In this document: positions 3,001 through 60,397 of the stretch, piece by piece
How positions within the stretch are numbered: the stretch's first letter is position 1
How the letters are laid out: the number at the start of each line of letters is the position of its first letter
Source of the DNA: Aureococcus anophagefferens
Taxonomy: Eukaryota; Sar; Pelagophyceae; Pelagomonadales; Pelagomonadaceae
DNA: 64,000 nucleotides
Reading direction: 5' to 3'
NCBI RefSeq assembly: GCF_000186865.1
Contig: NW_008705570.1
Coordinates: forward strand, 1,061,350-1,125,349
Translations under genes and position numbers: made by a program
Notes under the pieces: generated by a model
The model's input: only the letters and a program-made list of their open reading frames with translations
Database searches by the model: none
What the model was told of the DNA's origin: nothing

Positions 3001-4167
3001 ACGACGTCGTCCTGGGGACGTACCTCTTGGACGGCGCGCGCGTCGAGGCGGGCGAGGGCTCGGGCTTCGACCTGCGCTACGACCACGGGACCGTCGCCTT
3101 GGTCGCGGCGTCCGCCGAGGACCGGAGCGAGTGGCTGCTCGCGCTCGAGGAGGCGCTGAGCCAGCACCACGACATCGTCGAAGCGTTACGGCGGCGGAGC
3201 GGGCCGGCGCCGCGCGGCCGGTCGCCCGCGACGCCGCGGCGGTCGCCGAAGCCGCTCGCGGAGCCCGCGAGCCCGCCGGACTCGCCGGCGCTCTTCCGCT
3301 TCGGCGTCGGCCGCCCCGCGGACGAGTTCCAGTGCGAGTTCCAGTGTGGAAATCAACCACTGGTTTGGGACGTCCCCACCAAACTTCAGAACTCTCTATC
3401 TCGATCAAATCGACGTCGATTCGGCTGATTTTTGGACGAATCGATTGCTCTCGTCGAGTTCTCGAAGCACAGCGGAAGAGTACGGCGCAATCCGTTCAAT
3501 TACGCGCACATTGAAGTCGGGTTGAATATTTGATTTCCACGCAGGCGAGTTCTGCGAGTTCCGGGGCTCGTACGAGACCGTCGCGTTCCACGAGCGGTCC
3601 TGCCCCGTCGCGAGCGCCGACGCGCTCGCCGCCGACGTCTGCGCCGTCGAGGACCGCGGCGACGAGGCCGCGCGGCGGCGCCTCGCGGGCGCGGTATCGC
3701 GGCGCGGCCCGCTGTCCGTCGCCGACGGCGGCACGTGGCGCCGCGCGGCGTGCTCGCTGGCGGCGGCGACGTTCACCGCCGCGGGCGACTACGCCGGGCC
3801 CGCGCTCCTCGAGGAGTGCGGCGGCCGCGTCGTCGCGACGCCGCTCGCGGACCGCGTCGCGCGGCCCTGCGACCCGAGCGGCTGGGATCTGGAGCCCGCC
3901 GCGGGCGGCGACCCGCGGTCCTACGCGGCCGCGGACCGCGAGGACCGCGACGCCTGGACGGCGGCCATCGGCGACGCCCTCGCGGGCCACGGCCGCGTCC
4001 TCGCGGCGCTGGGCCGCGGCCGCGCGCCGAAGACGCCGCTGACCCACGACGATGCGATCCGCCGCGCGCTCGAGGCCGCGGAGCACCGCTACGCGAAGAC
4101 GGAGCCCAACAAGAAGTACGGGCCCCGGCTCTACTCGCCCTTCCAGGACCCGAGGGAGTTCCTGTAA
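1..4167 (+). CDS. Sfi1-like W-repeat and PH-domain protein (5' partial)
   Basis: The frame is open from base 3 to the intron at 3334-3544 and resumes to the TAA at 4165-4167, giving at least 1,317 residues; the start lies upstream of the window. The first ~550 residues are Ala/Arg-rich with regularly spaced AFRxW-type motifs (FGRW, AFRAW, AFRSW, GFAAW, AFRRW, AFLRW, AFARW), resembling centrin-binding repeats of Sfi1. Then come three PH-like domains, each with a beta-rich core and a C-terminal helix of the type DRDxWLxAL (DRDGWLDAL, DRDRWLGAV, DRSEWLLAL), and a diverged fourth one after the intron (DRDAWTAAI). Known of the families: Sfi1 repeats bind centrin at basal bodies, PH domains bind lipids or proteins. 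A centrosome/basal-body to membrane scaffold is inference. The stop lies inside a GTAAGT motif, so a further 3' exon is possible. Confidence 0.75.
3342..3544 (+). mobile_element. Introner element B1 (family B) forming a GC-AG intron
   Basis: This 203-bp element is flanked by the perfect 8-bp duplication GCGAGTTC (3334-3341 and 3545-3552). Its ends are inverted repeats: it starts CAGTGTGGAAATCAAC and ends TGATTTCCACGCAG. The host frame hits a stop inside it (3426-3428). Splicing from the GC that opens the left duplication (3334) to the terminal CAG restores codon T|GC and runs on in frame into the fourth PH-like domain. The intron is therefore 3334-3544, phase 1, type GC-AG. The core CGGCTGATTTTTGGACGA is shared with family A. 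See B2 at 37972 for the second copy. Confidence 0.85.
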
Positions 4168-12957: not shown

Positions 12958-15265
12958 TACCGCTTCTTCTTCTTCTTCGCGCCGCCCTTCTTGCCGCCCG
13001 ACGACTTCTTGCCGCCGCCCTTCTTCTCGGGCTTGGGCTTCGTCGGCGCGGGCAGGTGCAGGTTCGTCCGCAGGGCCTGGAGCATGTCGTAGGCGTGGGG
13101 CGGCGGCTCGGGCGCGCGCGCGACGCGCCCCGCGATCGTGACGGCCGTGTGGTAGTCGCCGCCCGGGTTCGCGGCCTTGACGCCCGCGTTGGCGCCGCGC
13201 CGCAGGAGCTCGTTGAGCAGGGCGCCGTGGCCCGCCGCCGCGGCGCACTGGAGGGGCGTGAAGCGCGCCGCGTGGGGCTCGCCGGTGGCGCGGTGGCCCA
13301 GGTGCGCGACGTCGGGCACGCGCGGATCCGGCGGCGGCGGCGGCGGCGGCTCGTCGTCGTTTTTTTCTTCTTTTTTCGCCTTCTTGGACGAGCCCTTGCT
13401 CGCCTTTTTCGACGACGAGCCCTTCTTCTTGCCCTTCTTGCCCTTGTCCTCGTCGTCCTTCTCCTCGGCGGGCGGCGGCGGCGGCGGCTCCGCGTGGGCG
13501 TTGCGCTCGTCGGCGAAGCCGTCGGGCGACGCGCCGTGGTCCATGAGGACGCGCGCGACCTCGACGGCCTCGGGCCCGCGCTCCCGCGGCAGGCGGCTCA
13601 CGTAGTGGAGCGGCGTCTCGCCCGACGTCGTCGTCGCGTTGGGATCCGCGCCGGCCGCCAAAAGCTGGCGCACGACGTCGCCGTTGCCCGTCGCCGCCGC
13701 GTAGTGGAGCGCCGTCGCGCCGCCGGACGTCGCCGAGCAGGACGGCGCCGACGGCCACGCGCCGCGGCTCAGCAGCGCCAGGATGGCCTTGGGCCGCTCG
13801 CCCATGGCCGCGATGGCCAGGGGCCGGTCGCCGTGCTCGTCGGGCGCGTTGCAGGCGTGGGCGTCCAGATGCGCGACGAGGTAGAGGCGCCCCATGGCGA
13901 CGCCGTGGGCCATGAGGGCCGCCGCGCGCGGGGACGCGGGCCCCGCGTCCGGGTCCGGGGCCGAGTCCGCGAGCGGCCCCCGGCGGTGGCCCTCGTGGGC
14001 GCGCTTGTGCTCCAGGGACTGGCCCCGCGAGTCGCCGCGGTTCGCCGGGTAGAAGGCCGCGTCGAGGGCCTTGGCCGCCTCGGGGCACGTCGGCCGGCAG
14101 AGCGCGGAGACCTGCGAGTCGGACACGTTGAACTCCTTGCGGATCAGCTCCTGGAGCGCGGCCCACTTCGTCTTGTCGTAGGGGAAGCCGCCCTCGAAGG
14201 TCTCGCCGCAGTACTCGAGGAACCGGAAGAGGCGGTGCAACGGCACGCGCCGCGGCTTGAGCAGCTGCGACGGGTCGCGCTGCGCGTGCGCCTGGGCAGC
14301 ACAAGAGTGATTCAACGTCGCTTCAACGTGAGTGTTCCGCGCGCGCGCGTTACGAAACAAGCATCCACGCTTCGAGACCGTTCCGAGAGATGATCGCTCG
14401 TCCAAAAATCAGCCGAAACGAGTGGAAAACGGCCGAGATCGGAGCCTTTGAAGTTGGGAATTTCGCTCTCTTTTGCTGCCCTGGCGTGCGCCTGCCGCGC
14501 GACGGCGCGGACCATGCCCCGCCGGTTGCCGCCGGCCGTGCGCGTCGCGCGGTGGAAGAGCGCGTGGATTTTGGTGGCGGCGCGGTCCTTGTCGGTCTCG
14601 TGGTGGGGCGGGTCGTGGTGCGCGGCGCCGAGCGCTCCCGGTATGGACGTGAACGGCTCGAAGTGGCACCGCAGCAGCAGCCAGCACCGCTCGACGCCCT
14701 TGCGGTCGTGGCCGCCCGTCGCGAAGCGCGGCAGGCCGTCGCCGCGCGTCCGCGGCATCTTCGCCAAGAGCAGCTTCTCCTCGGGCGTCGGCCGCGCCAC
14801 GGGGACGGGCGTCGTCCACTCGCTGTTCGCGGGGATCCAGTTGATGGTCACGCCGCAGGGGCTCACGAACGTGGGCATGGTCTCGATCTCCTTGGCCAGC
14901 TCCTTCTCGTCGCCGTCGAAGGCGGCCATGAGCGCCGTGCGCAGCCGGTCCTCCTCGCCGCAGCGGTCGGGCAGGACCAACGGCTCCTTCGGCGCCTCCT
15001 CGACCTTGTTCTCCTTCGCCGGCTCCTCCTCCTGGACGCCCTTCTTCTTGCCCTTGGACGCGGACCGGTCCTTCTTGCCCTTCTTCTTGTCCTTGCTCTT
15101 CGACCGGCCCTCCTTGGACGCGCTCTTGTCCTTTTTTTTCTTCTTGTCCTTCTTGTCCTTCTTCTCGCTCCGCCCGCGGGGCTCGGCGCTCGCCTCGCGG
15201 CTCGCGGGGGGCGTCGCCGCGTCCTTGGCGCCCTTCTTCTTCTTCTTCCGCTCCGGCGACGCCAT
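12957..15265 (-). CDS. Lys-rich ankyrin-repeat protein with IQ-like motif
   Basis: Two exons: 15265-14492 (258 codons, start MASPERKKKKKGAKD) and 14291-12957, joined by removing introner A1. Product 702 residues. N-terminal ~110 residues are Lys/Asp-rich and low complexity. An IQ-like segment follows (ATKIHALFHRATR). Exon 2 has ankyrin repeats (GDRPLAIAAMGERPKAILALL, TALHYAAATGNGDVVRQLLA, TPLQCAAAAGHGALLNELL) split by a Pro/Lys-rich insert, and a very basic C-terminus ending KKKKKR. Splicing yields the continuous RRQAHAQRDPSQ across the junction. Function unknown; calmodulin binding via the IQ motif is inference. Start is divergent from WBP11, 240 bp away. Confidence 0.75.
14292..14483 (-). 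mobile_element. Introner element A1 (family A) forming a GC-AG intron
   Basis: 192-bp element in the transcribed sense of the minus-strand gene, flanked by perfect 8-bp duplications that read GCGCACGC on the minus strand (14484-14491 and 14284-14291). It starts CAGGGCAGCAAAAGAG and ends CTTGTGCTGCCCAG. Removing 14292-14491 (GC from the duplicated target, AG from the element end) joins the exons in phase 0. It is nearly identical to A2 and A4. Confidence 0.9.
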
Positions 15266-18436: not shown

Positions 18437-20075
18437 ATGGCCGCCTTCGGCGCCGCGCGGTGCCAGGCGACCGTGGGGCGCGAGCTCGAGGACGACGACG
18501 AGGCCGTGACGGTCGTCCCCGGCGACGCCGAGGAGGCGCCCGCGCCGACGACGCTCGTGCTGCTCATGGCGTCGCACATCGCCTCCGCGGACCGGCTCTG
18601 CGCCCTCGGCGACGCCCTGCGCGCGGCGTCGGCGGCGCAGACGGCGGCGCCCGACGGCATCCTGCTGTCCTGGAGCGCGGAGGAGGCGTGGAGAGAATCC
18701 GCGCGGCGGCTCGTGAAGGAATGCGACTGCGACGCGGTCGAATGCGCGGGCCGGCGGTCCCAGTTCGAGCACCTGGCGGCCCTCGGCGCGCTGGTCGCCC
18801 ACCGCTGGGGCAAGAAGCGCAGCGTCTGGTGCTTCTTCGGCGACGACGACGACCTCGCGCACCCGTCGCGGACCGCGGAGTACCGCGCGGTGACGCCGAC
18901 GCGCCGCGGCGCTGCGCGTCCGTCTGCGCCATGTGGCGCGCCGAGGCGGCGCGGGCCGCCGCCGACGCGCCGCCGCGGCCGCGGTCCGCGGCGGACGTCG
19001 AGGCGCTGCTCGCCGCGGGCGCCGCGGAGCGCGTCGGGGCAGCACAAGAGAGCGAAATTCCCAACTTCAAAGGCTCATAGCTCGGCCGATTTCCACTCGT
19101 TTCGGCTGATTTTTGGACGAGCGATCATCTCTCGGAGCGGTCTCGACGCGTGGGTGCTTTTTCCGGAACGCGCGCGCGCGGAACACTCACGTTGAAGCGA
19201 CGTTGAATCACCCTTGTGCTGCCCAGGAGCGCGTCGGCGAGCCCTACGAGTACTTCCACTACGCGGTGCGCGTCCCCGCGCTCCTGTCCTTTCTGGGCGC
19301 CGCGCCGCCGGCGCTCAAGGCCGCGCGCTTCTGCGACGTCGCCTTCGTGGAGTTCCTGCGGCGCACGGACCGCGTCGTCTTCTCGCCGCGGAGCGGCGCG
19401 TTCAAGGCGTGCTGGCTCTACTTCTACGGCGGCTGCGACGGGCCCCGCGCGTCGCGGTCCGTGCCCGTGGACGCCGCGGCGCGGACCTTCGCGGCGGCGC
19501 ACGTCGACGCCGCGCGGCGCCTGAGCTGCGGCGCGGCGCTCGATTTGGACTCGTTCGCGCGCTACGCGGCGCACTTCCGGAGCCGCCTCGAGTTCTTCGC
19601 CGCGCGCATGGTCGGCGGCGCGCCGCGGCGCGCGGACGCGTTCCTCCAGCTCGCGCCGGACGTCGTCGGCGACCTCGCGCGCCTCGGGCTCCACAAGTGC
19701 CCCCACCTCTTCCTCTGGTGCGCGAGCCGCGCGCTCCACGGCCTCCTCGAGTTCGCGCGCGACTTCGGCGTGCGGCTCAGGCCCGACGCGGCGGCGCTCC
19801 TCGACGCCGCGGACACCGTCGCCGACCTGACCGCGGCGGCGCTCGTCGCCGTCGTCGCGCCCCGCAAGGGCCCGGCGCCGCGGCGGCCGCCGGCCTTCGG
19901 CCAGGACCGCGTCGTCCTCATGCAGGCGAGCGTCATGCGCGCGGCGGCGGCGCACGTCGCCGCGGCGCTCCCGCGCAACGGCGACGCCGCGCCGCCGGGC
20001 GTCGCGCGCGTCCGGGCCATGGCCGCGACGTGCGCGGCGGACGCGCTCCTCAAGGAGCTCGTCGCCCGCGGCTGA
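18437..20075 (+). CDS. Unknown protein interrupted by introner A2
   Basis: Exon 1 starts MAAFGAARCQATVG and reads to about 18895 in one frame (LVLLMASHIASADRLCALGD, GKKRSVWCFFGDDDDLAHP). It then continues one base out of phase (CASVCAMWRAEAARAAAD) to the introner; this shift is a one-base indel or a very short intron. Exon 2 (from 19227) starts ERVGEPYEYFHYAVRVPAL and ends LLKELVARG at 20075. The DDDD-L stretch after a hydrophobic strand is vaguely glycosyltransferase-like, but I do not recognise a family. The start is 125 bp from the divergent membrane-protein gene, the stop 55 bp from the convergent Cys-rich gene. Confidence 0.55.
19035..19226 (+). mobile_element. Introner element A2 (family A) with an atypical target duplication
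   Basis: 192 bp, starting CGGGGCAGCACAAGAG and ending CTTGTGCTGCCCAG, flanked by GAGCGCGT (19027-19034 and 19227-19234). Unlike the other copies the duplication begins GA, so exact restoration would need a GA-AG intron. A GT is present as the last two bases of the left copy (19033-19034). Using it gives intron 19033-19226 and keeps the frame but leaves six extra bases (GAGCGC, Glu-Arg) in the mRNA. This copy also has a stop (TAG, 19078-19080) created by a small deletion relative to A1 and A4. Confidence 0.85.
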
Positions 20076-21426: not shown

Positions 21427-22765
21427 TTACAGTCCCGTCGCGGGCGGCGGCGGCGCGGGCTCGCCGCAGGAGCAGGAGCAGGGCGTCAGGCAGCCGCAGC
21501 AGTAGAGGTCGCAGCATTTGAACTTGCATGCGCAGTTGACAGGGTCGCACGCGAGCGCGCCCTCGTCCTCGAAGAACATGTAGTCTAGCAGCAGCAGCGA
21601 CGAGAGCATGGCCGCCTTCGTCTTCTTGTCCGTGTCCTTGGGGAAATTCAGGACGAAGTTGTCCGCGTCCGTGAGCGACTGCTGGACGAGCTCGCCGAAG
21701 TCGCGCGCGCCCTCCTTCGTGACCTTGCCGATGGGCAGCCCCTCCGGCGACCAGACCGTGAACGTGGTGTCGAAGCAGGCGCCGCCGACGCAGCAGGTCG
21801 GCCCCGAGATGGACGCGAGCGCGTTGCCCTCGCGGTCCATGACGTCGAGGGACGGCGCGAGGCCGCCGCCGAGGAGCGGCTGCCGGACCGTCGCGATCTT
21901 GAGGGCCGGGTCGAGGGCCGCCTTCTGTTCTGGGGTTGCTGCGTAGACCTGCGAGGCGCACGCTTTCGGGCGCTCGAAACAGCTCGCTCGACGCCGGAAA
22001 ACGACGTCCAGCGTCTGCTGGCAGCACTCGTGGCACGTGCAGCAGCAGCCCGCGCACTTGAACGGCCGGTCGAGGAGGAGCACCTCCCTGGACCCGAACA
22101 TGCCCGGCGTGTAGACCTGGGCAGGACAAGAGAGATTCAACGTCGCTTCAATGTGAGTGTTCCGCGCGCGCGCGTTCCAAGAAAAGCAAAGCAATCGCGC
22201 TTCGAGACCGTTCCGAGAGATGATCGCTCGTCCAAAAATCAGCCGAAACGAGTGGAAAACGGCCGAGAAAGGAGCCTTTGAAGTTGGGAATTTCGCTCTC
22301 TTGTCCTGCCCGGCGTGTAGACGTGGAGCTGGAGCTTGTGGTTCGGCCGGCAGCAGGCGCGGCCCGTGGGCACCCAGCCCTCGTAGGAGCAGCGCTCGCT
22401 CGTCTCGACGACCTTGAACTGCCTGCCGCCGTTGCTCGTGTACGCGTCGTACTTGTTCGCCGTCTCGCCGAGCGCCGCGAACTCGCCGAGGCCCACGGCG
22501 CCGGCGACGGCGTTGGCGACGGCCTCCATGGTCTCGATCTTCTGCTTCACGAACAGCTTCTCCGTCTCCTCGAGGACGTCGAGCGGGTCGCTGGGCTCGT
22601 TGTGCTTGAGGGCGACCTTGACCTGTGGCGTGGCGTTCCAAAGGAGCGACGTGGAACATCGTCGCGGACACCGGCGGTCGCGGCCGCCGTCGTCGCGTCC
22701 TTGGCCGCGTCCAGGGCCTTGCCGGCGAGGGCGCTGCCCCGCTTCGCCATGCTCACCATGTCCAT
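21427..22765 (-). CDS. Phospholipid scramblase
   Basis: Three exons: 22765-22670 (32 codons), 22622-22323 (100 codons) and 22116-21427 (230 codons with stop); all lengths are multiples of three, total 361 residues. The first intron (22623-22669, 47 nt, GT-AG) is inferred from the frame change; the second is introner A3. Family blocks are clear: REVLLLDRPFKCAGCCCTC (Cys-rich, palmitoylation-type), GPTCCVGGACFDTTFTV, IGKVTKEGARDFGELV, DADNFVLNFPKDTDKKTK (calcium-binding-like) and LLLLDYMFFEDE (C-terminal hydrophobic helix). Known role of the family: calcium-activated bidirectional lipid movement at the plasma membrane or organelles. The extra Cys-rich C-terminus (CKFKCCDLYCCGCLTPCSC) after the helix is unusual. 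Confidence 0.85.
22117..22314 (-). mobile_element. Introner element A3 (family A, diverged) forming a GT-AG intron
   Basis: 198 bp on the minus strand, flanked by GTCTACAC (22315-22322 and 22109-22116). It ends CTTGTCCTGCCCAG and starts with a matching inverted end (CCGGGCAGGACAAGAG). Here GCAGGACA replaces the GCAGCA of the other A copies at both ends, so the two inverted ends changed together. Removing 22117-22322 joins CTC CAC|GTC TAC ACG in phase 0 inside the scramblase. The interior (ATTCCCAACTTCAAAGG, CTGATTTTTGGACGAGCG) is near-identical to A1. Confidence 0.88.
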
Positions 22766-36900: not shown

Positions 36901-39900
36901 AGGAACGCCGTCGGCAGGCAGGTCTCCGTCGTGCGCCTCCAGTCGACGAAGACCGCGACGTCTCGGCAGTCGCCCGAAACCGCCGCGGGCGCGGACCCGC
37001 CGAGCGCCGCCAGGGCGCCGCCGCCGCCGTGGGCGACGTTCGCCTCGAAGGTCGTCGCGCGGCCGACGCCCAACGTCGAGCGCCAGAGCAGGACCGCGCC
37101 GCCGAGCGCGCCGGGTCGGCCCGCGGCGTTTCCGCGGAGCGTCGCGCCGTCCAGCGTCGCGTCCGCCACGTCGAAGAGGGCGACGGCGCCGCCGCCCGCG
37201 GCGAGCGGCGTCGCGACGTCGCCGTCGACGGTGTTCGACTTCAGGATCGCGTCGGCGACGGCGACGCGGTCGCCGCCGCGCGCCGCGACCGCGCCGCCGG
37301 CGACGGCCGCGGCGTTGCCCGACGCGAGGGACGTCGTCAGGCTCAGCGAGCTCATGGCGCCGCCGTACAGCGCGCCGCCCTCCGCGGCGGCATTGCCCTG
37401 GAGCAGGGAGTTGTTCGCGACGAAGGCCGCGAGGCGCCCCGCGTGGACGGCGCCGCCGGCGCCGCCCGCGCGGTTGTCCGCGAACTTGACGCCGTCGAGG
37501 AAGGCCGACGACGCGTCGGCGAGGTGGAGCGCGCCGCCGTCGACCGCGGCGTTGGCCTCGAAGAGGGGCAGCCCCGGCGCGCCGTCCTCCCGGAGGCGGA
37601 AGGTCCGCGCGTTCGCGTGCGAGCCGCTCGGCACGTCGAGGACGAGGTCGTCGGCGTCGTCCATGGGGAAGGCGAGGCGCAACCGGGCGCCGCGCCAGCC
37701 TTCCGACGTGGCGTCGAAGGCGCTCGCGGTCTGCGGCGCGGCCGTCGGCGCGCAGACCGTCGCGGGGCGGCCCTCGACGACGAAAGCGTGGACCGCGTCG
37801 CCCCGGAGGACGCCGCCGCCGTCGACGTCGTCGGCGTCGCCGAGCAGGGCCCAGCGGTCGCTCTCGACGAGGTCGACGGCGTCGCAGAGCGTCGAGTCGG
37901 CGAGCCCGCAGCCGACGGCCGCCGTCGAGACGTCGAGAACCGCGCGGACGAAGCGGCAGCGGCTCGCGGACCTGTGTGGATTCCAAACCTTCAACCCGAC
38001 TTCAATGTGAGCGTATTCGACGGTTTCGACGCAAGGCTTTCTGCCGTGCTTCGAGAACTCGACGAGAGCAATCGATCCGTCCAAAAATCAGCCGAATCGA
38101 CTTCGATTTGATTGAGATAGAGAGTTCTGAAGTTTGGTGGGGACCCCCCACCAGTGGTTGATTTCCACACAGTCGCGGACGCGTGGAGCGTCGACCGCGT
38201 CAGCGAGGCCGCGCCGCCGTCGCCGGCCGCGTTACTTTTGAAGACGACGCCGCCGTGGACGCTCAGCGCGGCGTCCTCCGCCGCGAGGCCGCCGCCGGAG
38301 TCCGCGGCCGCGTTCGCTTCGAGCGCCGCGCCGGATCGCAGGAACGCGCGCGACCCCCGGCCCAGCAACAGGCCGCCGCCGTCCCTCGCCGCGTTGCCCG
38401 CGACGCGCCCGCGCAGGTCCACCGTCGACGTCTCCGCGACGTGGACGCCGCCGCCGGACCGCGACGCGACGTTGTCCTCGATCGCGCCGCCCGCGGCGAC
38501 GACGACCCACGCGTCGCGCTCGCCCGCGACGCCGCCGCCGTCGAGCGCGTCGCAGTTCCGCACGGCGCCGTCGTCGATCACCAGGACGTCGCCCGCCGCC
38601 AGGAAGACGCCGCCGCCGCGGTCGCCCGCGCCGCAGTCCGCGATCTCCGACGCGCCGTCGACGACCAGGCTCCCGTGGACCCCGCCGCCGTCGCGCTCCG
38701 CGGCGCACGCGCGCACCGAGGACCCCCCCGACAGCCAGGCCGCGTGGGGCGTGAAGATGCCGCCGCCGACCATGGCGCCGCAGCGCAGGATCGACGAGCC
38801 CGCGTCCGCGTGGACCGTGCCCGCCTGCACGTTGATCGCGCCGCCGACGAACGTCGCGGAGCAGTCGGCGATCGTCGACGAGAACAGCGCCACGGGCACC
38901 AGCGTCGACGCGTCCTCCGCCTGCAACCCATAATAACTATAAATAGCACCGCCGCCGTGGCCGCCGAGCGCCTGTGCCGGAAACGACCAGTGAGCTGGAC
39001 CGGTCCGGCGAAACTTCTCGAGCTCGGTCGATTCGGCTCATGTTGGGACGAGTCGTTTGCTCTCGTCGCGCGCGTTCCAGAGAGCACTCGAACCTGTTCG
39101 ATGACGCGCACATTGAAGTCGTGTCGACTCTTTTGTGTCCCGCCCGGCCGCGCGCGTGGCAGTTGCTGATCGACGACGCGTCCAGGACCACCGAGTCGCC
39201 CGACGCGACGCCGCCGCCGCTCTGGGCCGCCGTGCTGTCGGCGATGCTGGAGCCCCGGCTGAGCGCGACGAGCCCGAAGGGTTCCGCGAAGACCGCGCCG
39301 CCGAAGCCCGCGTGGCAGTCCCGCAGCGCGCCGTCGACGACGACGAACGTCGCCGCGGCCGACACGTAGACGCAGCCGCCGCCCTCGTCGTCGCCGACGT
39401 CGCCGCCGGCGAGGGTCGCGCGGAGCACCGTCAGCGCCGCCATCGGCGTCAGGAATAGGAGCCGGTGCGGCGGGCCGACGGCTCGGAGCTCGTAGCGCGG
39501 CGCGGCGGCGTCGAGCTCGAGGCCCAGCGCCGCGTTCGCGAGCGCGGCCTCGCCGCCGCCGCCGAAGAGCGCCCGGGGCAGCATCGCGCCGGGGTAGCCC
39601 GCGTTTAAGGGCGCCACCTCGAGCGCCTCCGGCGCGTCGACGTCGCCGTCGAGCAGCGCCGTCGTCTCCGAGGAGCCCGCGAGCGCGTCGCGCACGCGCT
39701 CGAAGCGCGCCGACGGCTCCGGGAGCGCGGCGGACGGCGCCGGCGACGCGGCGGCGAAGGGCGCCTCGCAGCCCAGGGCGACGTCGCCCGACCACGCCGG
39801 GGACGCCGGCAGGGAGAAGGTGTCGCGGAAGCCCGCGCGGCCCTCGACGCGGCCGAGCTGCCAGTGGACCTCCTCGGGGCTCGGGCCGTCGCCGGAGACC

Positions 39901-51777: not shown

Positions 51778-51944
51778 GGGGGGCCTGCGATGGCCGCGCC
51801 CGCGCGCGGAACACAGGGGAAGGACGCCAGTCGTGGCGGAGAGGCCGCGCGCCGCCGGGCAGCCTCTGGGGCCAGTGCTTCCTGCAACGTTGACCTAGAA
51901 CTCGCCGAGCTTCTGCCCCGAGGGGGTTGACCGCCGGTATGCCT

Positions 51945-52405
51945 GGTAGTATGCGCCCGCTATGCGGGCTTTATGCGGGCTTTATGCGGGCTTTATGCGG
52001 GCTTTATGCGGGTGGTATGCGGGTGGTATGCGGGTGGTATGCTGGTGGTATGCTGGTGGTATGCGGGTGGTATGCGTCTGCTATGCCGGTGGTATGCGGC
52101 TGCTATGCCGGTGGTATGCGGCTGCTATGCCGGTGGTATGCGGCTGCTATGCTGGTGGTATGCGGCTGCTACGCTGGTGGTATGCTGGTGGGCTGCTATG
52201 CTGGTCTTATGCGCCTGCTATGCTGGTGGTATGCGGCTGCTATGCTGGTCTTATGCGGCTGCTATGCTGGTGGTATGCGCCTGCTATGCGCCTGCTATGC
52301 GTCTGCTATGCGCCTGCTATGCGCCTGCTATGCGTCTGCTATGCGCCCGCTATGCGTCTGCTATGCGGCTGCTATGCGGCTGCTATGCTGGTGTATGCCG
52401 TGGCT
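51945..52405. repeat. 11-bp minisatellite (TATGCGGGTGG family)
   Basis: About 40 tandem copies of an 11-bp unit. It starts as TATGCGGGCTT, becomes TATGCGGGTGG, then TATGCTGGTGG, and ends as TATGCGCCTGC/TATGCGTCTGC alternations, so variants are arranged in blocks. Because 11 is not a multiple of three and no stop occurs in the unit, all three plus-strand frames stay open (products such as MRVVCGWYAGG repeats). There is no evidence of coding use. It lies between the EF-hand gene start and the unknown fragment at 52.5 kb. Confidence 0.9.
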
Positions 52406-52493
52406 GGTGTATGCCTGGTGGTCGGCCCCCTCTGCTTCTGCCCCGGTTGCGCCTAGATGCGGAAGACGCCGTGCGACGAGTGAGCGCGGATCC

Positions 52494-58040: not shown

Positions 58041-60397
58041 TTCGACGTCGACAGGCCCCTCGCGAAGATGGGCGCGTCCGGCGGCGTTCCGCAGAAGCAG
58101 GGCCCGTCGGGCGGCTTCCTGCAGAAGCAGGGCTCGAGGCCCGCGCTGGTGAAGCAGGCGAGCTCGCGCCTCGCGCCCGAGGAGCCCAGGGTGCGCAAGG
58201 CGACCTTCGGCCGGCGGACGCAGTTCGCGGCGCCGCGCGGCCCGCCGGCGCCGCTCGCGGCCGCGGCGCGCGCGCGGCACCCGTCCTTGGTCCGCGAGGC
58301 CGCGGGCGGCCGCCGGTCGCTCCGGGGTCCCCTGGGCGACCCGAGCCGGCGCAAGTCGCTGGGCATCGACCACCAGTCCATGCCCGTCACGGAGCAGCAG
58401 CTCCGCGAGCTCTTCTATATCGTCAACGTCGACTTCAAGGACACGTTCAACGCGAACGAGTCGCGAAAAAACGACAAGAACGTGCTGGACCGCGGCGAGT
58501 TCATCGAATTGTTGACGCGCCTCGCGCTGCTGCGCTACGCGGACCCGAAGGAGCCCGACGGCAAGGCGCTGCCCGAGGCGCTCGCGCTGCTCGTCGCGAA
58601 CCACGTCGGCCCCTACATCAAGGCCGTCGCGGAGCTCAACGCGCCGGAGCTCGCGCCCGGCGCGGCGTCGCCGGAGTTGATCGGCAACAACGACGCCTTC
58701 CGGCGCGAGCTCTTCTACACGGAGAAGGTCGACGCCAGGGCAGCAAAAGAGAGCGAAATTCCCAACTTCAAAGGCTCCGATCTCGGCCATTTTCCACTCG
58801 TTTCGGCTGATTTTTGGACGAGCGATCATCTCTCGGAACGGTCTCGAAGCGTGGATGCTGTTTCCGGAACGCGCGCGCGCGGAACACTCACGTTGAAGCG
58901 ACGTCGAACCACCCTTTTGCTGCCCAGGTCGACGCGGTCTTCGCGACGTACGAGCCCGAGCTGAGGCGCATGTTCCAGGAGCACTGCTACGGCTTCGTGC
59001 CCGAGGACCACCCGAAGCACCCGTCGAAGAAGAAGAGGGGCGCCGCGGCGCCGCCCCTCGACATGTTCGGGCCCCGGGCGAAGGGCGAGGACGACGACGG
59101 CGAGGACAACGCGTCCGCGGTGCCGCGGCTCGCGTTCCGCGACTACCTCGAGCTCATGTCGCGGAGCGGCATCTTCGAGATGCGCTACCTGAAGCGGGAC
59201 CGGGAGAACCCGCGGGACGGCGTCGGGCGGGGGCGCCTGACCATGTACGAGATGCTCGCGGACGTCGCGAAGAGCCGGCTGCTGCCCATCGACGACCACG
59301 TGGCCATGGCGGAGAACCACGATTTGGCGTTTGGCGATTTCTTGGAGGCCGTGGGCCGCGCGATCTGGCGGCTGCAGCTGCTGGACGTCGACGGCGACTC
59401 CATGCACTACCACGAGCGCCTCGACAAGTTTTTGCGGAACCTGCGGTCGGAGCTCTACTTCACGGACGGCCACGGCGAGCTCCGCGCGCGCTACGTGCGG
59501 GGCAAGCTCCCGGCGACGCCCGCGTCGGAGGCGCGGCCCCTCGTGGACCCGGCGGAGCTCCGCGCGACGCGCGCGGGGCCCCAGACCGTCGTCGCGTGCG
59601 CGGGCGGCGCGGCGCGCATCGGCCTCAAGCTCAAGAACCTGGGCAAGAAGTTCCACGTGGAGCACCACGACATCACGGCGACGCAGATGGTCAAGTTCGG
59701 CCACAAGCTCAAGAAGATCGCGAAGCGCCACAAGAAGTCCGTCGACGCGGGCGCCGTCGAGCCCCAAAAGGCCGACGCGGCGAAGAACCCCTACGCGCTC
59801 GCCTCCGCGAAGAGCGCGCGGTCGTTGTTCGCGCCCGTCATGTCCGCCGAGGAGATCCGCAAGGCGAAGCCCCGCGTCGACAAGTCGAAGAAGCCCAAGC
59901 CCAACGCCATGCTCGCGGCGTTCGTACGGCAGAATACCGAACCTTTGGAAGCCCTGGCCAAGTCCATCACGGTCTACGAGGAGCCCATCGCCGAGGCGCC
60001 GTCCTACCCCTCGACGCAGGCCGCGGGCGGCTACGCGCCCCCCGACGACTACGCCGACGACTTCGAAGCGTCGCCGGCGCGGGCCAAGGTCGAGGAGCTG
60101 GAGAGCATCCAGGACGAGAAGCGGAAGGTCGCCGACGAGATCGAGGCGCTCAAGGCGCAGATCGCGCGCGAGCAGGCCAAGGAGCGCGCCGCCGCCGACG
60201 ACGACGCCTACGACGACGACTTCGAGGAGGAGAAGGGGCGACGGCCGGCCGTCGACGTCGGCGACGCGTACGCGGACGACGCGTTCGACGACGACGCGGC
60301 CTCGCCGCCGCCGCGGCGCCGCGGCGCCGAGCGGTCCGCGGCCTTCGACGAGCCCGAGAGCGACTCCTTCGACGAAGAGGAGGGGCCCGCGACGTAA
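55827..60397 (+). CDS. Large leucine-rich-repeat protein with introner A4
   Basis: ATG at 55827 in an ideal context (CCACCATGG). Exons 55827-58727 (967 codons) and 58928-60397; 1,456 residues. N-terminal basic/Ser-rich head, then LRRs at ~130-350 (YLENLDLSGTVVGAPGIKAL, LKSLRLDKCGLSDKVAALL, TRLDLSWNLLTKVDML, LQALNLNNCGLDAAAVETL), a long middle domain, an acidic poly-Asp run, then an EF-hand-like helical part repeated twice (LRELFYIVNVDFKDTFNANE; VFATYEPELRRMFQEHCYGF). The C-terminal tail has a coiled coil and DDYADDFE/YDDDFEE motifs seen in many flagellar proteins. A ciliary/flagellar role is inference. The splice restores EK|VDAVFATYEPEL. Confidence 0.75.
58736..58927 (+). mobile_element. Introner element A4 (family A), clean GT-AG copy
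   Basis: 192 bp, flanked by perfect 8-bp duplications GTCGACGC (58728-58735, 58928-58935). Starts CAGGGCAGCAAAAGAG and ends CTTTTGCTGCCCAG, inverted over GGGCAGCAAAAG. Intron 58728-58927 (200 nt, GT-AG, phase 0). The host frame stays open through the whole element, so retention would insert residues rather than stop translation at once. Best type copy of family A in this window. Confidence 0.93.

Follow-up and report, generated by a model that had tools for sequence, protein, structure and literature searches.

Family A is a short repeat with four copies (A1-A4) in the 64-kb window, the whole stretch of Aureococcus anophagefferens DNA that we analysed (72.6% GC). Our analyses confirm it as a real introner-type element, with splicing predicted from sequence. 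It is very probably a non-autonomous, MITE-like DNA transposon that would act as an introner. Support comes from the target site duplications (TSDs), the terminal inverted repeats (TIRs), the hundreds of near-identical copies, a putative acceptor within the element itself, a putative donor taken over from the duplicated target, and coding flanks that meet in phase at 97 of the 106 copies examined. The mechanism appears to match that of the introners published for this species, and as such the finding is already known.

A sequence-only reading of the window had placed four copies of about 190 bp at 14292, 19035, 22117 and 58736. BLAST of the window located all of them at these positions, and the family consensus found no fifth full copy (Table 1). 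The 8-bp target duplications of that reading are exact 8-mers at every copy (plus strand: GCGTGCGC in A1, GAGCGCGT in A2, GTGTAGAC in A3 and GTCGACGC in A4). The common length and inverted ends hold for A1, A2 and A4, which measure 192 bp and end in GGGCAGCA/TGCTGCCC. A3 departs from this description: it is 198 bp long with an inner part of 193 bp, has three bases in place of CA at its gene-5' end, and both of its inverted ends are altered (GGGCAGGA/TCCTGCCC). The inversion does not extend to the terminal dinucleotides, which read CA...AG on the gene strand, or CG...AG in A2. The acceptor AG is on the minus strand in A1 and A3 and on the plus strand in A2 and A4. The window also contains a dense array of 11-bp tandem repeats (51884-52448).

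Table 1 Introner features in the window (positions count from the first base of the window).
Feature	Position	Strand	Remarks
A4 TSD 1 (GTCGACGC)	58728-58735	+	source of GT donor
A4 element	58736-58927	+	192 bp; CA-GGGCAGCA...TGCTGCCC-AG
A4 proposed intron	58728-58927	+	TSD 1 + element, 200 nt
A4 TSD 2	58928-58935	+	opening bases of the following exon
A1 element	14292-14483	- (host gene strand)	192 bp; TSDs 14284-14291 and 14484-14491; GC donor
A2 element	19035-19226	+	192 bp; TSDs 19027-19034 and 19227-19234 (GAGCGCGT); starts CG, not CA
A3 element (in scramblase gene)	22117-22314	-	198 bp; TSDs 22109-22116 and 22315-22322; GT donor
Family B copy B1	3342-3544	+	TSDs 3334-3341 and 3545-3552 (GCGAGTTC)
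Family B copy B2	37972-38172	-	TSDs 37964-37971 and 38173-38180; acceptor-like CT/AG at both ends

Deletion of TSD 1 together with the element regenerates the host target to the base in A1, A3 and A4. In these three copies the putative AG acceptor comes from the element and the putative GT or GC donor from the TSD, as the sequence-only reading had proposed. Its further claim, that every copy sits where the host gene needs an intron, agrees with the same three and is in doubt for A2. The A2 target opens with GA at the expected donor, without GY at the start of the TSD, and is the exception among the four. We infer that the A2 frame would survive a candidate GT donor six bases in or a GC donor twelve bases in. 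Targets opening with GA instead of GT or GC were seen at A2 and at two copies elsewhere in the genome (L009 and L083).

The genome-wide search that the earlier reading had suggested was run on the host assembly (49.05 Mb, 86 contigs). It returned 468 copies with the exact ends CAGGGCAGCA...TGCTGCCCAG (CA...AG), the pattern being exact ten-base ends with 158-188 bases between them. BLAST with A4 gave 1906 candidates at a first look, and the 40 that we scored were all 96-100% identical. For the exact 16-base left end, CAGGGCAGCAMAAGAG, we counted 431 occurrences, and for its reversed control pattern none, which excludes chance. The right end, AAYCACYCTTKTGCTGCCC-NG, has 592 exact occurrences, with T in place of A in 108; among the 100 of these 592 that were listed, the base was A in 74, T in 23 and C in 3. 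We read out 106 distinct copies with their flanks, a non-random sample with 67 forward and 39 reversed interiors. They came from 30 BLAST-best loci, 30 loci with a TG end, 40 regions picked from the pattern lists, neighbouring copies within these loci and the window (L001 is A4 itself); three loci (L012, L088 and L103) yielded no usable copy. At first, 16 of the 103 core matches were left out because the two ends could not both be located; several of the 16 belong to family B. The genome thus holds many highly similar putative introns at unrelated positions, as the 468 exact-end copies and the 106 read out indicate.

In this sample the gene-strand 3' dinucleotide was AG in 106 of 106 copies, and the 5' dinucleotide was CA in 95, CG in 8, CC in 2 and TA in 1. 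A TSD with at most one mismatch was readable in 98 copies, and the remaining 8 had two to four mismatches. The 98 readable TSDs open with GT (48) or GC (47) in 95 cases and with GA in 3. For an earlier set of 86 copies, 80 with readable TSDs, GC or GT opened the TSD in 77/80 on the acceptor strand. On the opposite strand of the same TSDs the figure was 32/80, which is above the background (GC or GT at 21% of in-phase coding positions drawn at random from the window) but far under that of the acceptor strand.

Coding strand and frame were called independently for each flank by codon-position composition, using 99 bases on each side. Removal of the element restored the coding frame, judged by this measure, in 97 of the 106 copies, all on the acceptor strand; nine were discordant and none was antisense. 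With 210-base flanks, available for 86 copies, 77 were in phase, one was out of phase and eight were discordant. Moving the junction by one or two bases left only 1 of 157 sense calls in phase. Since random window sites already give same-strand, in-phase calls at 67%, enrichment within genes as such is moderate, and strand and phase are the strong signals.

The host genes of two window copies were followed further. Without A4, its host has a stop-free frame of 1485 codons, with a third-position GC of 0.97 in the 3-kb part that was scored. Frame length is nevertheless weak evidence for A4 splicing, because the genome is GC-rich, other frames are also long and the same frame stays open over 1074 codons with A4 left in. 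No Pfam family matched the A4 host protein stretch. The predicted spliced product of the A3 host matched Pfam Scramblase (E 7.7e-28). A 134-residue piece around the A3 junction, which lies after residue 95, matched the same family over residues 8-131 (E 2e-07).

These features suggest the following course of events. A transposase supplied in trans would cut the target with an eight-base stagger, and where the coding-strand target starts with GT or GC, TSD 1 would provide the 5' splice site. Both the pyrimidine tract and the 3' splice site would come from the inverted repeat in its CCCTTTTGCTGCCCAG reading. The spliceosome would then take out 200 nt (the TSD plus 192), restoring the message exactly. 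Every copy for which a coding strand could be assigned has its AG on that strand. In the predicted A4 fold the two repeats pair, but overall stability is ordinary (z -0.24), and we set aside the idea of a specially stable RNA hairpin. Covariation between the two repeats is seen at position 9 (p 4e-7); it is weak at position 13 (p 0.005) and not clear at position 7 (p 0.11). This covariation can be explained by shared descent.

Two other explanations of the copies were weighed against DNA transposition. If excised introns were reverse-spliced into other transcripts and then copied back to DNA, one would expect insertions within genes in a splice-competent orientation, and the 97 in-phase copies with 0/106 antisense would fit. 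Such RNA-based spread is very improbable, however, given the local 8-bp duplication at each copy (98/106 with at most one mismatch) and the inverted repeats at both ends of a single interior that occurs in two polarities. The first eight intron bases also vary between copies, which reverse splicing does not predict. That the copies are just low-GC repeats of an ordinary kind, rather than introns, seems to us barely credible. The window does contain numerous other low-GC islands, but such repeats would not account for in-phase joining on the acceptor strand in 97/106 copies, against 67% on either strand at random window sites. Nor would they account for the loss of phase with shifts of one or two bases, or for a Scramblase domain that runs unbroken across A3. 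An introner moved by DNA transposition is therefore the reading that we keep.

Family A occurs in two polarities: the interior runs forward in the majority of copies and is reversed in about one in five. At 108 of the 592 right ends, interior and gene point in opposite directions, yet the gene-strand ends are still CA...AG. Thirty of these 108 TG-ended copies were read out and all 30 had CT at the other end; they are mirror copies that again read CA...AG on the opposite strand. Symmetric copies with exact ends were absent from the host assembly (CA...TG 0 and CT...AG 0, searched with the same end length and spacing, vs 468 CA...AG). Splicing should then follow the ends and not the direction of the interior, since the gene strand shows CA...AG in both polarities.

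A tree built from 104 interiors, 66 of them forward and 38 reversed, showed strong clustering of polarity, with 9 changes vs 31 in shuffles. Polarity does not form one clade, and the starred branches force at least two changes, with bootstrap not yet settled. Individual copies cross the divide. L091 has forward polarity, yet shows 0 differences from the consensus interior of the reversed copies, and L056 and L097 have reversed polarity with a forward haplotype. The haplotype 221111111 is found in both polarities (three forward and six reversed copies). Mosaic haplotypes suggest that copies may have exchanged sequence.

Polarity switches could possibly arise by inversion between the repeats, by conversion of the interior or by independent mutation of the ends; the last is disfavoured by the absence of symmetric intermediates. 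If the interior were inverted between the terminal repeats while the outer CA and AG were kept, exceptions such as L091, L056 and L097 would arise without passing through symmetric copies, and this would agree with the nine changes on the tree, at least two of them forced by the starred branches. We hold this account of inversion only tentatively, because the mosaic haplotypes allow gene conversion of the interior to explain these exceptions too. The strong clustering of polarity also speaks against inversion, and the haplotype shared by both polarities fits a single ancestor before the split.

A sister family, family B (about 200 bp), has an interior stretch in common with family A, and its two window copies have acceptor-like ends on both sides. 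Its exact left end occurs 383 times in the genome, and 95 of the 100 listed among these start with CT (CTGTG), an acceptor when read from the opposite strand. For 11 family B copies located in the retrieved DNA, direction was judged from the start of the TSD together with the coding call: five ran one way, five ran the other way and one was unclear. Coding calls backed four and three of these directions, respectively; L006 was discordant and two copies had too little flank. A diverged family B fragment lies at 39027-39127 of the window (80% and 86% identity over about 40 bases each).

The two families together raise the possibility, which we put forward with some doubt, that splicing polarity is uncoupled from the orientation of the element. 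The mirror forms of family A would be locked to CA...AG, and family B would have acceptors at both ends. The repeat would then serve both as a transposase site and as a reversible acceptor, with switching by inversion or conversion. We found no account of a switch in introner end polarity in the literature searched, most subscription papers lying outside that search. The polarity lock and the two-ended family B may be the new part of this work.

Huff, Zilberman and Roy (Nature, 2016) reportedly described introners that carry one splice site and co-opt the other from the duplicated target. The sequence-only reading had likened the window copies to Aureococcus introners, and the marks of that type are all present (8-bp TSD and TIR, putative acceptor in the element and putative donor from the TSD). 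In published accounts, A. anophagefferens introner elements have a characteristic length of about 210 bp (PMC9481584), and always show direct and inverted repeats whose length is constant, together with canonical splice motifs (PMC7789003). A report of insertion in both orientations is attributed to Huff et al. (PMC10228655), and we rate the finding as already known on account of such reports. Family A resembles these elements, as far as they are described, in length class, repeats, splice motifs and use of both orientations, and judged by description it is likely one of the published Aureococcus families. Gozashti et al. 2022 describe families in which the 3' site belongs to the introner and the 5' site is drawn from the TSD, and their method also looks for insertions in opposite orientation (PMC9860276). 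In their Aureococcus sp. example both splice sites lie within the introner and the transcript gains 12 bp (PMC9860276), whereas most copies here would restore the message exactly.

We also compared family A with known transposons and looked for a source of transposase. Elements of the hAT superfamily make 8-bp target duplications and have the end motif YARNG. Family A shares the duplication length and its CA end, CAGGG, fits the motif; its acceptor end, CTGGG, does not, and neither does the CTGTG of most family B ends (95/100 listed of 383). Only one end of family A thus agrees with YARNG. The Pfam hAT dimerisation domain gave 0 loci in the host genome at E 0.001. With E relaxed (up to 0.004), four loci scored over the curated cut-off, and 14 control genomes gave none. 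In a protein rescan the pieces from L033 and L032 passed the Pfam cut-off and that from L035 failed (18.2 bits vs 21.4). The earlier reading had proposed looking for a transposase bearing the introner ends, and the hAT-like loci examined revealed none. Three of them, viewed in 7-8 kb, lacked paired ends with 8-bp duplications as well as any GGGCAGCA or GGGCAGGA, and the fourth, L032, seen as 3 kb, had no introner ends. Two loci (L036, 1134-4034, and L037; C1 and C13) contain hAT-like transposase genes as two overlapping open frames. These genes lie within a duplicated 4.7 kb stretch (99% identity) with no detectable transposon ends. A 1217-codon open frame at L038 (2056-5706; C6) matches DUF4371 and the hAT dimerisation domain weakly, in each case below the curated cut-off, and is possibly a domesticated transposase.

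A pattern for ends that diverge at base 17, which misses any autonomous element with a longer shared subterminal sequence, matched nine times in the genome (reversed control 1). One match is A4, three coincide with copies already known, and the other five we presume to be point mutants. Neither this pattern nor the hAT-like loci examined turned up an autonomous partner. An interior 20-mer of the introner had 0 exact matches in IMG/VR. Viral carriage was considered and rejected: the sole end-pattern match (L031) is in a contig with bacteriophage-like frames, comprises the end only and was taken as chance.

Introners are a leading explanation for mass intron gain, and the window offers a clean example from an assembly in which copies number in the hundreds. 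With the polarity result, the ends that splicing would need can be told apart from the cargo in the interior of the element. It also offers a natural way of asking which bases at the ends transposition maintains and which ones splicing does.
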